Source of the DNA: Vibrio sp. ED004
Lineage (GTDB): Bacteria > Pseudomonadota > Gammaproteobacteria > Enterobacterales > Vibrionaceae
Direction: 5' to 3'
Assembly: GCF_023206395.1 (NCBI RefSeq)
Contig: NZ_CP066150.1
Coordinates: 1,674,001-1,738,000, forward strand
Length of the DNA: 64,000 bases
The notes under the pieces were generated by a model. It did not search any database, had not been told where the DNA came from, and saw nothing but the letters and a program-made list of their open reading frames with translations. This document shows, piece by piece, positions 49,102 through 61,107 of the stretch (its first letter is position 1; each line of letters opens with the position of its first letter). A program made the position numbers and the translations under genes.

Positions 49102-51096
49102 ATGAGTTCAGTGGGCTTCGTTCGACCCAAACATCCGTGTGCCGAGTTCAATATGATGACAAGTTATCAGCCTTTCGAGTATCTCCAGTGTCCTATTTGG
49201 ATATATGACATTGATAATAAGAGAATAACTTGGGCAAACAGCAGTGCCCTACCTCTCTGGGAGTCTGAATCCCTGTTTGAGCTAACGTCACGTGATTTCA
49301 GTGTCGAGATGTCTAAGGCGATAGAAGCAACGCTTGAAGAGTACCAAAGGCAGTTTCTCCGAAATCAAAGCATCAAAACTTGGTGGAACTTCACGCCTAA
49401 GTACATTGCTAAACGAGCACTGTGTTTGTTCTCTGGGATCCCACTGCCAGACGGACGAACCGGCATGTTGGTACAAGTCGTCGCGGAAAAAGGTAGCCTA
49501 AAGCACGATCTCGCTTGCTCCGATGGTTCAAACCTCTCCCCCCTATTTGATAGATCGGGAGCGGTAGTGAGTGCTAACTCTGCATTTTCCCAGAACTATG
49601 ATGCACCGTTTTCCACCCTCTCCGACTTTGTTTCAAGTGAAGAAATTGCAGCCCATTGGTTGTTCTCGGCGCGTAAAGGACGAGAGATTTTAGAAGAGGT
49701 TAGCTGCCATATTGGTGATAAAGCCCACCACTTTGATGTGCAGGGAAAATGGCTATTTGATAAGAGTGAACTGCTGTTAAACCTAACTTGTACCACCAAA
49801 CAGAAAGAGAAGCTGATCAAGGCCAGATACAATGCAGAGCACGACTGTTTAACCGAACTATACAATCGCCGTGGAATCACCAACCTCTTAGAAACCAGTA
49901 TTGCCTATCGCTCGCCCTTTGAGTTGATGTTCGTTGACCTTGATGGCTTCAAACTGGTTAATGACACCTACGGGCACAGTGTGGGTGACCAACTGCTCAA
50001 ACAAGTGGGTGAACGTCTCAAGCAGCTCGTTGATGAGACCTGCATGATTGGCCGACTTGGTGGTGACGAATTCATAGTGATCGCCCACACCTGCCGAAAT
50101 CAAAACATCCCGCTGCTTTGCACACGCATTATCGATGCCTTAAACCGAAGTTTTCATATCAGAGGCATTGGTACGCTCTCAGTCGGTTGCAGCATTGGTA
50201 CTGCACATTTCCCCGATAATGCCGTGGATCAAGAATCATTACTGAAACAGGCGGGAATGGCGATGCATATTGCTAAAGCCAATGGTCGAAACCGCTTCCA
50301 AACCTTCACTCCGGACTTAGCACAAACGCTTCACCGAAAAGTAGAAATTCGCCATCGATTGACGCAAGCCCTAGAAAACGAAGATCTCGATCTGCATTAT
50401 CAGCCGATCATGAACACCAACAGTGACAAGGTTAAGGGCTTTGAAGCGCTACTTCGATGGTCAGACAAAGAGCTCGGTAACATTGGCCCTGATGAATTCA
50501 TCACCTTGGCGGAAGAAACTGGGCAGATAGTGCCACTCGGAAAGTGGGTGCTCAATTCAGCACTGAAACAGCTATCAATATGGCATCGAGAGTTTGATAG
50601 CGAGCTAATGATGAGCATCAACATCTCGAGTATTCAGATGCATGCAACCTTTGCTGAACAGCTGTCTGCAATGCTTAACTTCTACAATATCCAACCTCAA
50701 AACATTGCACTTGAGATCACAGAGTCTTCGATGATTTTCAAACACGGTGAAGTAAGACAAGCATTAAGCGACATCTCCAAATTAGGCGTTGAACTCCACC
50801 TTGATGATTTTGGCACTGGCTACTCTTCCCTCTCTATGCTGCACGACTTACCAATTAGTACCGTAAAGCTCGATAAAAGCTTTGTTCACGGTTCACACAA
50901 AGGAAGCAAAGCGATTGTCCAAGCGACCCACGCAATTTGCGACAAGTTGGGGCTCAAAGTGGTGGCTGAAGGCGTCGAGACCGAGACACAAAAAGACTTC
51001 TTAATCGACTGTGGATACCAATACCTTCAAGGGTATTTGTTTAGCAAGCCAATCCCGTCAAACGAAGTCGAAAGCCAATTTTTATTCGTTCGATAA
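49102..51096 (+). CDS. PAS-GGDEF-EAL c-di-GMP enzyme
   Basis: A soluble protein of up to 664 residues. A PAS-like domain (about residues 25-130: CPIWIYDIDNKRITWANSSA) and a second sensor-like region lead to a GGDEF domain with RLGGDEF, preceded by no I-site (RxxD is absent). A full EAL domain follows, with FEALLRW, ALEITESS, DDFGTGYSS, KLDKSF and EGVET all intact. The EAL half is expected to break c-di-GMP; the GGDEF half may be active or regulatory. A later ATG at 49153 is an alternative start; neither has a clear ribosome site. Confidence 0.9.
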   Translation: MSSVGFVRPKHPCAEFNMMTSYQPFEYLQCPIWIYDIDNKRITWANSSALPLWESESLFELTSRDFSVEMSKAIEATLEEYQRQFLRNQSIKTWWNFTPKYIAKRALCLFSGIPLPDGRTGMLVQVVAEKGSLKHDLACSDGSNLSPLFDRSGAVVSANSAFSQNYDAPFSTLSDFVSSEEIAAHWLFSARKGREILEEVSCHIGDKAHHFDVQGKWLFDKSELLLNLTCTTKQKEKLIKARYNAEHDCLTELYNRRGITNLLETSIAYRSPFELMFVDLDGFKLVNDTYGHSVGDQLLKQVGERLKQLVDETCMIGRLGGDEFIVIAHTCRNQNIPLLCTRIIDALNRSFHIRGIGTLSVGCSIGTAHFPDNAVDQESLLKQAGMAMHIAKANGRNRFQTFTPDLAQTLHRKVEIRHRLTQALENEDLDLHYQPIMNTNSDKVKGFEALLRWSDKELGNIGPDEFITLAEETGQIVPLGKWVLNSALKQLSIWHREFDSELMMSINISSIQMHATFAEQLSAMLNFYNIQPQNIALEITESSMIFKHGEVRQALSDISKLGVELHLDDFGTGYSSLSMLHDLPISTVKLDKSFVHGSHKGSKAIVQATHAICDKLGLKVVAEGVETETQKDFLIDCGYQYLQGYLFSKPIPSNEVESQFLFVR

Positions 51097-52713: not shown

Positions 52714-53559
52714 GCGCTGTAAATAAAACAAAACCGACTTACTTAGACTATGTTTGATAGTGCGTATTAATTAATCAAAAGCCACTTTTGCTTTCTGGTT
52801 ATAACTCACTCAAAAAGAATGTTTATTGAAGAAAATCGTTAATATAGTAAGGTTTCTCCAATGACACAGGCATTATAAAAAACCTCACTCATATCAAATT
52901 GAAATATCTTTCAACAAAATAGAGCACAAACACTAACCAAAAACAGCTTAATCATGGAATCAACATCACAGTTCAATCGACCTAACGCTTTGAGTTTCAC
53001 CCTTCTTAGTTAAAATTAAAAAGAAAGATTTTAATAACATTACATTAATTGATAAAGCCTATTCATAAAACCCCGGCAAAACCACTACTGATATTAGTAT
53101 CAATTGATAATTGTCATTAAATAAAGAAATATAACGCCTCAATTAAATGATATTAATATTACCTATTTCATTGTAATTAAATTTTATCCTGAAAAAACCT
53201 GATAAATCAGCCCCATCAATAGCCACCACAAATACCACGCGCAACTACATTAGCAATCACTAAAATTATGGTTAAAACTGCTGATATAGAGGCTTACAAA
53301 TGGATAAATACCAAAACAAATGGATAAATCCCCCTTGTCTCTTGTAAAACATCGGCTTTCATTTATAAATTCAAGTTTTGGGTGAACATCTCTATAACCT
53401 TTCATTACAGCCCAGATTCTGCGATTAGTATCAACATCTTAAGAGGAAATGGTGACATTTTAGTTATGTTATTTAGAACGGACTCTTGGGTTGAATGACA
53501 ATCCCAGCCATCACATATCAATCACACAAATATAATAACTATCGCTTAGGAGTTGAGCT
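52714..53559. other. AT-rich intergenic region before the winged-helix/EAL gene
   Basis: About 850 bases without a supportable gene. It is clearly more AT-rich than its surroundings, with many runs of AAT and TTA. Such regions often bind H-NS or carry long regulatory leaders. A GATAATTGTCATTA stretch near 53107 recalls a Fur box but is a poor match. Confidence 0.5.
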
Positions 53560-55302
53560 ATGCACTGTTCTTTCAATATAAATAACAATAATGAGAGCTT
53601 GCAACTAATCTATAATGAAGAAAAAATATATATCAAAAGAGACAGTAATAAGATATCAGAGGAAACTCTTAATAGTAAAGAGAGTTTTGTCTTCAAATAT
53701 TTAATTGAGAATGCTTCAATTTCTAACCCTCAATCCGCTAGAGATGTTGAAGAGTCTTTTAAATCGCATTTTGATGAAGAGTTCAGTTTGTACGCATTAA
53801 AGAATATTATCGCGTCTATAAGAAAGAAATATCGCAACCTGTGTGAAGAAGCCGAGGTTGATAATAATAGTGAACTCATTTCTAACCTTTATAAGGTTGG
53901 CTATTTTATTGATCTCGATAAGAGCTCAGAAAACCGCATAGCGCCCAAAGACAACATCAACCAGTTCAAACCCAGTCAGGTAGAGATGCTCAAGCTGATG
54001 TTCAACACCTATCACAAGGAGTTGATCAGGGCTTTGATAACCGTGTTCACCGCGACGTCATTCTTCTTGTTCGTTGTCTACTTTTTCCAAATCCTTTATA
54101 CAACGAAAATTGCAGATGAATACAGTGGGAACACCAAACATATTGCAGAAGAAGTGATGGATTACGGCTGTGATAGCCCTGGGGCCGTACATTCACTAAG
54201 GCATTCCCTCAACCTCGACTCGGTCGTCATGACCACCCCTCATGGCTCGTGCTATATATCCAAAAGCCGCTCACAGTATGTGGAACTCGATAAGATTGAT
54301 GACTTCTACGACAGTGGCGATTTCACTTATTCGCGTTTCAGAGACCTTGAAAATGATATCGATCTGACGGTTCGTATTTCCAAAGGTTCTATTGAGGCGC
54401 GTTACAGAAACTCACTGTTGCCTCTGCTGGTTGATTCGGTTTCTATACAAAAGAATGGCTACTACATTCTCAACCTCGGCGATCACAGTCAGCCGATTTA
54501 TACTTCTGAGCTACCGAGCAGTGCCTCAATCACTTTCTACAGTGACGATATCGTTGCACTGTGGGTTGCACTCTCACTGCTGCTCGCTACCCTACTCTAT
54601 CGCTCGTATATTTTAGGTTTCTTTATTTACCTGTATCGCTGGAAACACATCTCGTTTGAAGAAGAGCCAATCATCAACACCGAAGACAGCACCGTTTTGT
54701 ACTACGAGTTGTTATCTAGGGTGCGTAATGTCGGCGTTTTGAGCTTCATCAACACCATGAGACGCACCAACTTACTGACGTTTCATACGATTTTACTTGT
54801 CGAAACGGTCAGAAACGCCAAGTTAAACAACAGCCATGAGATCTACGGTGTCAACGTCTGCCCAAGTGCTTTAGTTGGGAATAACTTTTCAAAACTCAAA
54901 GTGCATTTGGACGCGATGGAAGCGAATGAATTTGTGGTTGAGATAACTGAATACTCAAACATTGGTTATGGATGTGAGGTTATAGACAACATCAAGGCAA
55001 TCAAAAAGCTGGGGATCACCATCGCATTGGATGACTTTGGTACAGGTAATAATAACATCGAGATCATCGGTATTATCTCCCCAACCTACCTAAAGTTGGA
55101 CCGTTGTTTTGTTAAAGACATCGAATCAGGAGAGCATCATCAAGGCGTGTTGCTTAACATCTCAGAGATCGGACGCTTATCTAACATCACGATGATTTAT
55201 GAAGGCGTCGAAACACGCAGGCAACAATACATATTGTGTCAGTTGGGCTACAACCTGCATCAAGGTTACCTATACAGCCGACCTCAAAGCACGACAAGCT
55301 AA
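53560..55302 (+). CDS. Transmembrane winged-helix / CSS-motif / EAL fusion protein
   Basis: A 580-residue protein with an unusual order of parts. Residues ~35-120 form a ToxR/OmpR-type winged helix (SLYALKNIIASIRKKYRNL, then ISNLYKVGYFIDL). TM1 lies at ~157-179. Residues ~180-330 are periplasmic and have two cysteines (C204, C231), with spacing like the redox-sensing CSS domain of E. coli PdeC-type enzymes. TM2 is at ~331-348. Residues ~375-575 form an EAL domain. The motif is YELLSR instead of EALLR, but the catalytic set looks complete: E383, N432, E461 of EITE, D491 and D492 of DDFGTG, K512, E548 of EGVET and Q568. The N-terminal third is markedly AT-rich. It is probably a c-di-GMP phosphodiesterase whose membrane state is linked to DNA binding. 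An AGGAG site lies before the ATG. Confidence 0.82.
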   Translation: MHCSFNINNNNESLQLIYNEEKIYIKRDSNKISEETLNSKESFVFKYLIENASISNPQSARDVEESFKSHFDEEFSLYALKNIIASIRKKYRNLCEEAEVDNNSELISNLYKVGYFIDLDKSSENRIAPKDNINQFKPSQVEMLKLMFNTYHKELIRALITVFTATSFFLFVVYFFQILYTTKIADEYSGNTKHIAEEVMDYGCDSPGAVHSLRHSLNLDSVVMTTPHGSCYISKSRSQYVELDKIDDFYDSGDFTYSRFRDLENDIDLTVRISKGSIEARYRNSLLPLLVDSVSIQKNGYYILNLGDHSQPIYTSELPSSASITFYSDDIVALWVALSLLLATLLYRSYILGFFIYLYRWKHISFEEEPIINTEDSTVLYYELLSRVRNVGVLSFINTMRRTNLLTFHTILLVETVRNAKLNNSHEIYGVNVCPSALVGNNFSKLKVHLDAMEANEFVVEITEYSNIGYGCEVIDNIKAIKKLGITIALDDFGTGNNNIEIIGIISPTYLKLDRCFVKDIESGEHHQGVLLNISEIGRLSNITMIYEGVETRRQQYILCQLGYNLHQGYLYSRPQSTTS

Positions 55303-55358: not shown

Positions 55359-57893
55359 TTAAGTGTTGCTACACGTAAGGCTTTCAGAGTTCGCAGGAAA
55401 ATAGGCATCAACTAACCCTTGAGCAGAGAGTGGCTTATCGAAGTAGTAACCTTGTAATAAATCACAATGGTATTGCTGCAACTTCGCCATCTGCTCTGGG
55501 GTTTCTACCCCTTCCGCGACGACTTTCATTTGGCAAGACGCACCAATATCAATGATCGCTTTAACCAAGGTTTCGCTGTGTTGACTGGAGTTGAGCTTGC
55601 CAATGAAAGATCGGTCAATCTTGATCTCGGTGATCGGTAACGTATTGAGGTAATTCAGTGATGAAAAGCCCGTTCCAAAATCATCGAGCGAGATACCAAA
55701 ACCGTACTCACGAAGCCTTCTCAGTATCGGCTCAACAATGTGCAGGTCTTTTATGAGGATGTTTTCTGTAAGTTCCAGAGTGACTCGACAAGGGTCGATG
55801 CCCACATCTTCAACGAGACCAATCACCTTGTCATCGAAGCCAAGTTCAAAGACTTGTTTCGGTGACACGTTCACAGAAACACATACCGCTTCTGGCCCGT
55901 TTGGCATTAAGCTCAAAGTATCTGCACACGCTTTTCTTAACACAAACTCACCAATCTCGTGAATCTTGCCTACTCGTTCTGCTGCTGGAATGAAATCCAG
56001 CGGAGACACAAAACCAAGGACACTATTGTGCCAACGACAAAGCGCCTCTACCCCTTTTAGCTGCTCGGTATGAGAATCTACCTGAGGTTGATAGAGCACA
56101 CTGAACTCGCCCTTGTCTAAGGCTGTTTCTAACTGTTCTTCAATCGAAAAGTCATACTTCACTTTCTGATTGATCACATCGTCATAGAAAACCGCATCGC
56201 CTTTGTTCAGCTCCTTCGCCTTATACAACACAATATCGGCTTTGGTTAGCAACTCTTCCACCTCTGTTCCATCATAAGGATACATAGATACGCCCGCAGA
56301 ACATTGCGCAGAAACAGAAGAACCATGCAGATCAAACGAAGGCTCGAACACATCTTGGATTTGTTTAACTTTGTTTTCCGCTTCCACAAGGTCGTGAATG
56401 CCCGGCAGACAGAAAACAAACTCATCGCCGCCGAAACGTGACACGATATCGTTAGGCCCTAAGATACGCTCAAAGCGCTGACCAATCTGTTTCAGCAATT
56501 CATCTCCGCTCGCGTGACCATATTGGTCATTGATGCGTTTGAAGTTATCTAAATCAACAAACACTAATGCCACCAGCTTGCCTTCGAGTTTTGAATGCGC
56601 GATAGCTCGGCTGACTTGCAGTTCGAGTTCTGAGCGGTTTGGAAGAGCGGTTAAGGAGTCGTGTCTTGCCATATGTTGAAGACGGCGGCGGCTATTTTGG
56701 ATTCGATTGAAGTCATCGGAAATTCGCTGTTCCATTTGAGCAAAGCGTATCGAGATCCTTCGGCCAACCAGAGCGCTGATAAAAATGCACGCTAGGGAAA
56801 CGAGTACGCTCATGACGAGAACGAGCCCGAACTCGTTGCGAGACTCAGCCAGTAACTCATCCTTTCGCTTCTCTATCGAAGCATTGACGTTATTCAGGTA
56901 AATACCCGTCCCAACAATCCAATCCCACTCGCCGACATTCTGTACGTAGCTGCTTTTTGTGCCTATCACGCCCTGTTTATCTTCCGCCGTGTAGTCGACA
57001 AACCCGCCTGTCTCAGCTTGAGCCAGAACATCTTGTTTGAAGTCATCTCCAATTAGGTCATACACATTAAGCTCTCGCCCCGCATGAATCTGGTTCGCAT
57101 GAAGCAAGCTGTTGCCGTTCTTCTCAAAAACAAATAGGTACCCATTATCGCCAATCGTTACTGTCGACAGGATCTCAAGGATTCGTTGGTAACTCGTGCG
57201 CTTAACATCTTCAATCGAAACACCTGTACCGAAATACCAATCAAACGGCTCAAATCGGCGGATATAACTGAGTTTTTCAAAATGGTCGCTGCCGAGATGA
57301 GGCTTTTCGAAATCCTGCCCATCAAACCCAGGACGAGGGGCAAAATAACGAGAGTAAGCCCCATCGGTCGCTTTCAGAAGGTCGATTTGCTCTTTGATGA
57401 CAGGCACGCCACGGATGTCGGTCTCTTCTAACTGATTTGTGTTTTCAAGTTCAGGATACAGTGGATGGACTAACAGATTACCTTGCATGTCATAAGCATA
57501 GATATACCCCTTTTCCTTGGCATAGCTCAGCTTTCTAATCTCATTAAGAATGAGTAACTTGAGTTCTTCTTGTGGCAGGTGTTGATTAGATGAATAGATA
57601 TTTCGAGCGGCGGTATAGGCTCTGTCTAAGCGACGGGTGATTCTCTTTTTTGTCTCAGATTCAATAAGGCGCTGGGTGTGCGTGATTTGCTGAGACACCT
57701 GCAACACCTGGGTCTCAATCGATTCCTTTTGCGCTGCAATGTAATCCGTTCTGATGAGATTAACCAACGCCTTAACCTTGTGGTCTACGCTCGTGAACAT
57801 CGCTACATTCAATATGATCGCAGAAAAGATGATGATGGTTATTGGCAAATACTTGGTAAACCAAACCAGTTTTTTGTCATTAATGTGCAACAT
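55359..57893 (-). CDS. Double-Cache GGDEF-EAL membrane protein
   Basis: An 844-residue inner-membrane protein. The first hydrophobic segment (about residues 14-34) precedes a periplasmic region with two Cache-type modules, each ending in the typical W-x-x-G-TG motif (WYFGTGVSI and WIVGTGIYL). A second hydrophobic segment lies near residues 355-378. Then come GGDEF (RFGGDEF active, I-site degenerate as GPND) and EAL domains (GVEALCRW, LELTEN, DDFGTGFSS, KIDRSF, EGVET intact). It may both make and degrade c-di-GMP in response to small ligands such as amino or carboxylic acids. It is convergent with the winged-helix/EAL gene, 56 bases apart. Confidence 0.92.
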   Translation of the reverse strand: MLHINDKKLVWFTKYLPITIIIFSAIILNVAMFTSVDHKVKALVNLIRTDYIAAQKESIETQVLQVSQQITHTQRLIESETKKRITRRLDRAYTAARNIYSSNQHLPQEELKLLILNEIRKLSYAKEKGYIYAYDMQGNLLVHPLYPELENTNQLEETDIRGVPVIKEQIDLLKATDGAYSRYFAPRPGFDGQDFEKPHLGSDHFEKLSYIRRFEPFDWYFGTGVSIEDVKRTSYQRILEILSTVTIGDNGYLFVFEKNGNSLLHANQIHAGRELNVYDLIGDDFKQDVLAQAETGGFVDYTAEDKQGVIGTKSSYVQNVGEWDWIVGTGIYLNNVNASIEKRKDELLAESRNEFGLVLVMSVLVSLACIFISALVGRRISIRFAQMEQRISDDFNRIQNSRRRLQHMARHDSLTALPNRSELELQVSRAIAHSKLEGKLVALVFVDLDNFKRINDQYGHASGDELLKQIGQRFERILGPNDIVSRFGGDEFVFCLPGIHDLVEAENKVKQIQDVFEPSFDLHGSSVSAQCSAGVSMYPYDGTEVEELLTKADIVLYKAKELNKGDAVFYDDVINQKVKYDFSIEEQLETALDKGEFSVLYQPQVDSHTEQLKGVEALCRWHNSVLGFVSPLDFIPAAERVGKIHEIGEFVLRKACADTLSLMPNGPEAVCVSVNVSPKQVFELGFDDKVIGLVEDVGIDPCRVTLELTENILIKDLHIVEPILRRLREYGFGISLDDFGTGFSSLNYLNTLPITEIKIDRSFIGKLNSSQHSETLVKAIIDIGASCQMKVVAEGVETPEQMAKLQQYHCDLLQGYYFDKPLSAQGLVDAYFPANSESLTCSNT

Positions 57894-60213: not shown

Positions 60214-61107
60214 GGTTCATCGCGGATTAGCGGGAACTAAAAACAAAAAAACGGTAGTAAGTGATATGGTTTAGTCGCCAAACAAAAATCATACACAAAC
60301 TACCGTTTTCATGCCGAATCATACTTTCCTATCTTCATTCTGGGAAGGCTTTAAAATAGTAAAGTCTCACCAGACAGCATCACTTGTTACACTAACTCTT
60401 AAACCTAATTCTGAGGCTAAGACTCACCAAGTCATTTGGATAGGGTTAGGTCGTAGCCGCAAGGACATACGACCGTTTTTCGAGCAGTTAGGCAAGCATG
60501 GTAACAATATCGAAGCGGTCGCAATGGACATGAATACGGCTTTTGACCTTGAAGTTCAAGCGCACTGCCCGAATGCAAAAATCGTTTACGACTTATTCCA
60601 TGTTGTTGCTAAGTTCGGTCGTGAGGTGATGGATAGAGTCAGAGTCGACCAAGCTAACAAACTCAAGCAGGATAAAAAGCGAGGCAATGGGTGAAGCGCT
60701 CACGCTGGGTACTGCTGAAAAACAGAGGTAATTTAAATGCACGACAAGATAGCTATCTTACTGAAATATTGAATATCAATAAGGACTTGATGGCCACTTA
60801 TATACTCGGCTCACAACTCAAAGAGCTTTGGTACTGTAAATCAGAAGCACATGCTAAGGGGCTCTGGGAGGTATGGTGGGCACAAGTGCAAGAGAGTGGA
60901 ATTAAGCCATTGAAAGAGTTTGCACGAAAACTGAGGCCTTATCTTCACGGTATTATTGCATCGGCAACTTATCCGCTCAACACCTGCACATTGGAAGGGA
61001 TAAACAACAAAATAAAGTTAATCAAGCGAATGGGGTATGGATATCGAGATACAGACTACTTCTTCTTGAAGATAAAAGCGGCTTTCCCCGGAAAGCCGCG
61101 ATGAACC
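60214..61107 (+). mobile_element. Internally deleted ISL3-family insertion sequence
   Basis: The element is 894 bases. Its ends share an inverted repeat beginning GGTTCATCGCGG at both termini, with weaker similarity for about 10 more bases. It is flanked by perfect 8-base direct repeats TTTTTTAT. Its only gene is a broken ISL3-type transposase. Full members are expected to be around 1.2 to 1.3 kb, so an internal part is missing. It can only be moved, if at all, by a complete relative elsewhere in the genome. Confidence 0.88.
60311..61104 (+). pseudogene. Broken ISL3-family transposase
   Basis: The first ~36 residues (MPNHTFLSSFWEGFKIVKSH...) are the normal N-terminus. Sequence then jumps to the middle of the DDE domain (HQVIWIGLGRSRKDIRPFFEQ), so the zinc-finger and HTH regions and the first catalytic aspartate are lost. 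The frame ends at 60694 and the rest (VKRSRWVLLKNRGNL to the C-terminus) continues in another frame from 60691. The second aspartate (AMDMNTAF) and the glutamate region (TLEGINNKIKLIKRMGYGYR) remain. Both defects make it inactive. Confidence 0.88.

Follow-up and report, generated by a model that had tools for sequence, protein, structure and literature searches.

The window analysed here is the whole 64,000-nucleotide stretch of Vibrio sp. ED004 (contig NZ_CP066150.1, positions 1,674,001 to 1,738,000), which sits on the smaller of the genome's two contigs (1.97 Mb). At 53560-55302 on the forward strand it carries an open reading frame (ORF) of 580 amino acids, with AGGAG ahead of its ATG, that we assign by an NCBIfam match to a TpdA-like membrane phosphodiesterase gene; the closest protein to its product comes from Vibrio chagasii (92% identity). 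From the N terminus to the C terminus, and all on the forward strand, the product is composed of a cytoplasmic OmpR/ToxR-type winged helix (residues 3-117; 53566-53910), a first transmembrane helix (about residues 155-178; 54022-54093; placed by hydropathy and charges, inside a model helix spanning 140-202), a periplasmic sensor domain (residues 180-330; 54097-54549), a second transmembrane helix (about residues 331-349; 54550-54606) and a cytoplasmic EAL domain (residues 364-575; 54649-55284). A first-pass annotation, made from the letters of the sequence, had proposed that a winged helix, a periplasmic domain and an EAL domain are united in this order in one membrane protein, and profiles together with the structure model bear this out.

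The EAL domain matches PF00563 and has a complete catalytic set. E383, L385, R387, N432, E461, T463, E464, D491, D492, K512, E548, E551, Q568 and G569 are invariant in 39/39 relatives, and the NNN that follows DDFGTG is likewise found in all 39, making DDFGTGNNN (residues 491-499) a family signature. EAL proteins were among the best 50 matches listed in a fold search with the full-length model. Collectively, these features identify a predicted c-di-GMP (cyclic di-GMP) phosphodiesterase. The E383-L-L motif that had been singled out as unusual is indeed present and carries no significance, as the middle residue of the motif, at position 384, varies among the relatives (L in 19, V in 10, A in 8 and I in 2) and ELL is nothing unusual for this family.

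The N-terminal domain was examined by the two routes suggested earlier, a profile search and structure prediction. Profile-profile comparison against 29 diverse Trans_reg_C domains (of 30; L138 was dropped owing to a stop) gave a probability of 94.6%, with controls at 0.1-0.2%, whereas comparison with near-identical PhoB-like domains only gave 0.6%. TpdA rows alone likewise reached 94.6%, so that TpdA too has a winged helix by this comparison. The structure model displayed a winged helix with b4-a3-b2 topology at residues 3-117; a second model (P0063) begins at about residue 49, so part of the winged helix is absent from it. Profile homology and model topology point to an OmpR/ToxR-type winged helix, which would bind DNA.

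The protein matches the NCBIfam model NF051476 (TpdA) end to end, with residues 19-573 aligned to model positions 15-568 of 570 (E 2.8e-75). TpdA is VP1881 of V. parahaemolyticus (PMC12405303, PMC11176486) and is treated as a phosphodiesterase elsewhere (PMC11315295, PMC12548387). It has been described as a trigger phosphodiesterase whose enzymatic activity anticorrelates with its own transcriptional activation; a fall in c-di-GMP is reported to induce its promoter, and this induction depends on TpdA (PMC10269520). TpdA and the window protein share the same order of parts over the full length, two periplasmic cysteines, the catalytic set and DDFGTGNNN. The first-pass annotation had held that no studied protein has this architecture, a claim we abandoned because a known family with the same domain order, which the annotation itself had named as a refutation, exists and TpdA, one of its members, has been characterised. 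Identity with TpdA itself was also rejected. The window protein scores 254 bits against NF051476, below the curated cut-off of 1000, whereas V. parahaemolyticus TpdA (P0125) scores 1081; the two proteins have 27% identity and 46% positives over 551 columns and belong to separate clades, indicating that they are not orthologous.

In a midpoint-rooted tree of 30 rows, which carries a long-branch warning and omits L145, L147, L148 and L045 for want of a suitable ORF, 13 TpdA rows stood apart from the 17 others with a support of 100/100; of these 17, 11 formed the window clade (92/89) and 6 a third group (98/99). By sequence comparison, the window protein falls within the TpdA superfamily and belongs to a clade found in Vibrio that is sister to TpdA; what was a one-protein case thereby becomes a superfamily of three clades in this genus. 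Among 227 genus genomes searched at E 1e-50, 52 had a match, comprising 33 window-clade copies, 7 third-group copies in 6 genomes and 18 TpdA rows; groups were assigned by score and identity bands, and at most 6 candidates were scored per genome. TpdA and a third-group copy occurred together in 5 genomes. No genome listed in this search combined TpdA with a window-clade copy, an absence that is not firm given that the TpdA rows lie near the cut-off. A search of 197 family genomes with the TpdA model at E 1e-40 matched 28, and here again both kinds of copy were seen only in G130 and G185. In two-contig genomes, window-clade copies were on contig 2 in 12/12 and TpdA was on contig 1 in 4/4. Using the N-terminal 365 and 355 residues as queries yielded lists of at least 63 and at least 18 proteins, respectively, of which the named ones were all from Vibrio, and a single distant full-length match was found in another genus of the family (G097). 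G130, which has TpdA on its larger contig, also carries two third-group copies in tandem on another contig (L172, G130:C2; 2326-4059 and 6651-8380), about 2.6 kb apart.

Upstream of the gene, the 1-kb intergenic region contains only one long direct repeat, the 14-bp ACAAATGGATAAAT, with copies at 53296-53309 and 53316-53329 on the forward strand; the 20-bp period corresponds to about two helical turns, and we regard the pair as a candidate operator. In dinucleotide shuffles of this region, a direct repeat of at least 14 bp arose in 0/1000, of at least 12 bp in 12/1000 and of at least 10 bp in 32/300. No other direct GGATA pair with a period from 10 to 33 occurs in the 64-kb window. With up to 3 mismatches allowed, the 31-bp site formed by the repeats has a single occurrence in the 5.8-Mb genome, as expected of a private autoregulatory site. 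We claim no further regulon targets, since a looser repeat pattern gave 6 matches, this site included, as against 13 for a backwards control.

The repeats are conserved across the clade. For a footprint of 17 promoters (the window and 16 orthologous promoters, L029-L044, out of 33 window-clade copies; L046 and L047 were omitted because the start lay outside the flank, and the wider stretches L187 and L188 show intact repeats), a GGAT pair was found at exactly 20 bp in 17/17. Invariant columns numbered 21/35 at 53298-53332 and 22/43 at 53333-53375; outside the repeats and promoter, they numbered 5/58 just upstream, 19/55, 13/70 and 7/40 downstream, and 10/19 beside the start. Directly downstream of the repeats is a candidate promoter read from sequence and conservation, TTGTAA (53342-53347) and TATAAA (53364-53369) separated by a 16-nt spacer on the forward strand. 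By comparison, TpdA promoters (L021-L027, 7 of 8 loci, with the split gene L028 omitted; the genus search lists 18 TpdA rows) have a TATCC-N9-GGATA inverted repeat about 96 bp before the ATG in 6/7, the seventh being degenerate. The block TATAAAAAAA-CTAAA is strongly conserved among these TpdA promoters, with CTATATCC-N9-GGATAT and TCACA coming after it.

Among known systems, ToxR and CadC have a cytoplasmic OmpR-type winged helix, a transmembrane helix and a periplasmic sensor, and end in the periplasm; the window protein shares this layout and adds a second transmembrane helix leading to a cytoplasmic EAL enzyme. PdeL (YahA), with a solved chain of 369 residues, resembles the window protein in joining a DNA-binding head to an EAL domain, which is active in PdeL. 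We take PdeL to lack a periplasmic sensor. Its head differs in being a LuxR-type helix-turn-helix. The E. coli protein binds its promoter at a far-upstream position and activates its own transcription when c-di-GMP is low (PMC5052742). Control of a macromolecular target by an EAL enzyme in response to c-di-GMP has been reported for both TpdA (PMC10269520) and PdeL (PMC5052742). Being an EAL enzyme that binds the promoter of its own gene, PdeL sets a precedent and supports, by analogy, a self-activation reading of the window protein.

From the computed architecture, family, catalytic set, invariant cysteines and conserved repeats, we consider the protein most likely to be a self-activating, TpdA-like trigger phosphodiesterase, with a probability of roughly two in three; its enzymatic activity, its binding to the repeats, its self-activation and any signal through the periplasmic domain are inferred. 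The trigger-phosphodiesterase concept, as applied here, rests on the architecture and the promoter repeats, and the conserved promoter repeat suggests that the protein may switch itself on. The cytoplasmic EAL domain would bind and hydrolyse c-di-GMP, and while c-di-GMP is plentiful, the substrate-bound state would keep the protein off DNA. Upon a fall in c-di-GMP, the membrane-held winged helices, as in ToxR or CadC, would bind the GGATAAAT direct repeats, and binding just upstream would activate the gene's own promoter. More enzyme would lower c-di-GMP still further, a positive feedback by which the cell would be committed to a motile state of low c-di-GMP, while an outside signal would enter through the periplasmic domain and its invariant cysteine pair. 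The earlier idea that one molecule might both degrade c-di-GMP and act at a promoter appears to be right, judging by the relative TpdA (PMC10269520). For phosphodiesterases said to drive their own expression, the repeats offer a concrete candidate operator. As TpdA was not found alongside window-clade copies in the genomes listed at the cut-offs of the genus search, these copies may represent an equivalent switch out of biofilm life.

What the periplasmic domain would sense can be read in two ways. The domain, whose fold is tentatively Cache-like in the model, contains exactly two cysteines, C204 (codon 54169-54171) and C231 (codon 54250-54252), both on the forward strand and both invariant in 39/39 relatives. 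A third periplasmic cysteine is found in 12/16 TpdA rows, the V. parahaemolyticus row not being among those 12. The domain may be a ligand-gated, Cache-type sensor in which a bound small molecule controls the enzyme or the DNA-binding head and the disulfide is structural; we hold this to be a genuine though tentative possibility. The second reading, for which the chances seem somewhat poorer and which we regard as doubtful, is a redox-gated, CSS-like phosphodiesterase, in which an oxidised C204-C231 disulfide would keep the enzyme low and its reduction would activate it, as in PdeC, with the DNA-binding head as an extra output. Such gating is compatible with autoactivation, and redox control of PdeC has been reported (PMC8846402).

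The evidence on the CSS-type label, which the first-pass annotation had applied to this domain, is divided. As in PdeC and other CSS-motif phosphodiesterases, two periplasmic cysteines stand between two transmembrane helices, ahead of an EAL domain; the window protein differs in its extra winged helix and in having neither a PF12792 (CSS-motif) match, with 0/39 relatives matching at E up to 10, nor the C-S/T/N signature at the second cysteine, which reads CYIS here and CLI, CLV, CYI or CFI in the family. All 30 CSS proteins that we compared (of 31; L050 from the same genome and the others from host-family genomes, with the short ORF L066 omitted) have this signature, and their cysteines are 30-32 residues apart as against 27 here. 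Comparison with these proteins in hhalign gave a probability of at most 1.8% over one cut and 27 further settings. In the best global profile alignment, which is weak, both cysteines nevertheless fell in register with the CSS pair. With the best-scoring of the 27 settings, the global score was matched by 8 of 400 shuffles, the register by 3 and both by 1; in an earlier run of 100 shuffles, the global score was matched by 2 and the local score by 9. Because of the register result against 400 shuffles, the redox reading was given more weight and the Cache-type reading slightly less; CSS was kept as a rival rather than rejected, as a weak signal, in which the two cysteines are in register, remains after the shuffle tests. 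The label itself is unproven, and an invariant disulfide may also be merely structural.

Several observations weigh against a self-activating, TpdA-like phosphodiesterase. A direct Pfam match for a DNA-binding domain, PF00486 included, was found in 0/39 relatives, and it was profile-profile comparison that recovered the winged helix; when taken alone, the window clade reached 72.5% and the third group 82.5% against Trans_reg_C. The GGATA arrangement is inverted in TpdA promoters and direct in the window clade, and in the third group (all 7 copies examined), direct GGATA pairs at 18-21 bp were found in 2/7 promoters (the first copy of G130 and G303) and were absent in 5; L045, from another genus, had no usable start. 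TTGTAA-TATAAA is a weak promoter-like pair that the consensus scan, with its rule of T at position 6, omits; the sigma-70 scan listed five sites, every one on the reverse strand. It could also be another regulator that binds the repeats. The gene appears dispensable in some strains because two orthologues have been interrupted by insertions. Finally, a literature search, in which subscription papers were mostly not covered, found no experiment on any window-clade member. The missing Pfam match and the 72.5% of the window clade would suit a degenerate regulator whose winged helix no longer binds DNA, leaving a plain membrane phosphodiesterase and repeats that serve another factor, but this is improbable given the invariance, over three diverged clades, of K81, N82, A85, R88 and K90 in the third helix and N109, G114 and Y115 in the wing, and given that the TpdA promoter depends on TpdA (PMC10269520).

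Building on the self-activation reading, we put forward a more speculative model, of which we are far from confident, in which the protein is a membrane-anchored, three-port c-di-GMP switch within one chain, with a periplasmic signal in, a phosphodiesterase and its own promoter out, acting through one private operator. All of the TpdA superfamily would share the GGATA half-site, whose arrangement would have shifted between clades from inverted with a 9-bp gap (TpdA) to direct with a 20-bp period (window clade), and through the invariant cysteine pair the redox state of the periplasm would set the switch. If this were true, paralogous circuits of the TpdA superfamily would be related, each with its own wiring. 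Periplasmic gating also becomes testable in TpdA through the invariant cysteine pair.

Regarding the neighbourhood, three EAL proteins are encoded within 9 kb by Pfam, namely a GGDEF-EAL protein (49102-51096), the TpdA-like protein (53560-55302) and a convergent dCache-GGDEF-EAL protein (55359-57893). Among eight window-clade stretches, one of which stops at a contig end, 6 have the response-regulator and GGDEF-EAL genes upstream of the gene, 6 have the GntR-ABC-permease genes downstream of it, and 2 (L182, L188) have the dCache gene at 67% identity or more. Two of the 33 window-clade copies are broken by independent insertions with DDE transposases (Pfam), at L187 7155-10289 (G155) and L188 7373-10172 (G140), one after about codon 110 and the other after about codon 157; both copies have kept their upstream repeats intact. 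Elsewhere in the window, two overlapping ORFs at 60311-61104 each match part of the ISL3 transposase model PF01610, representing a split transposase gene.
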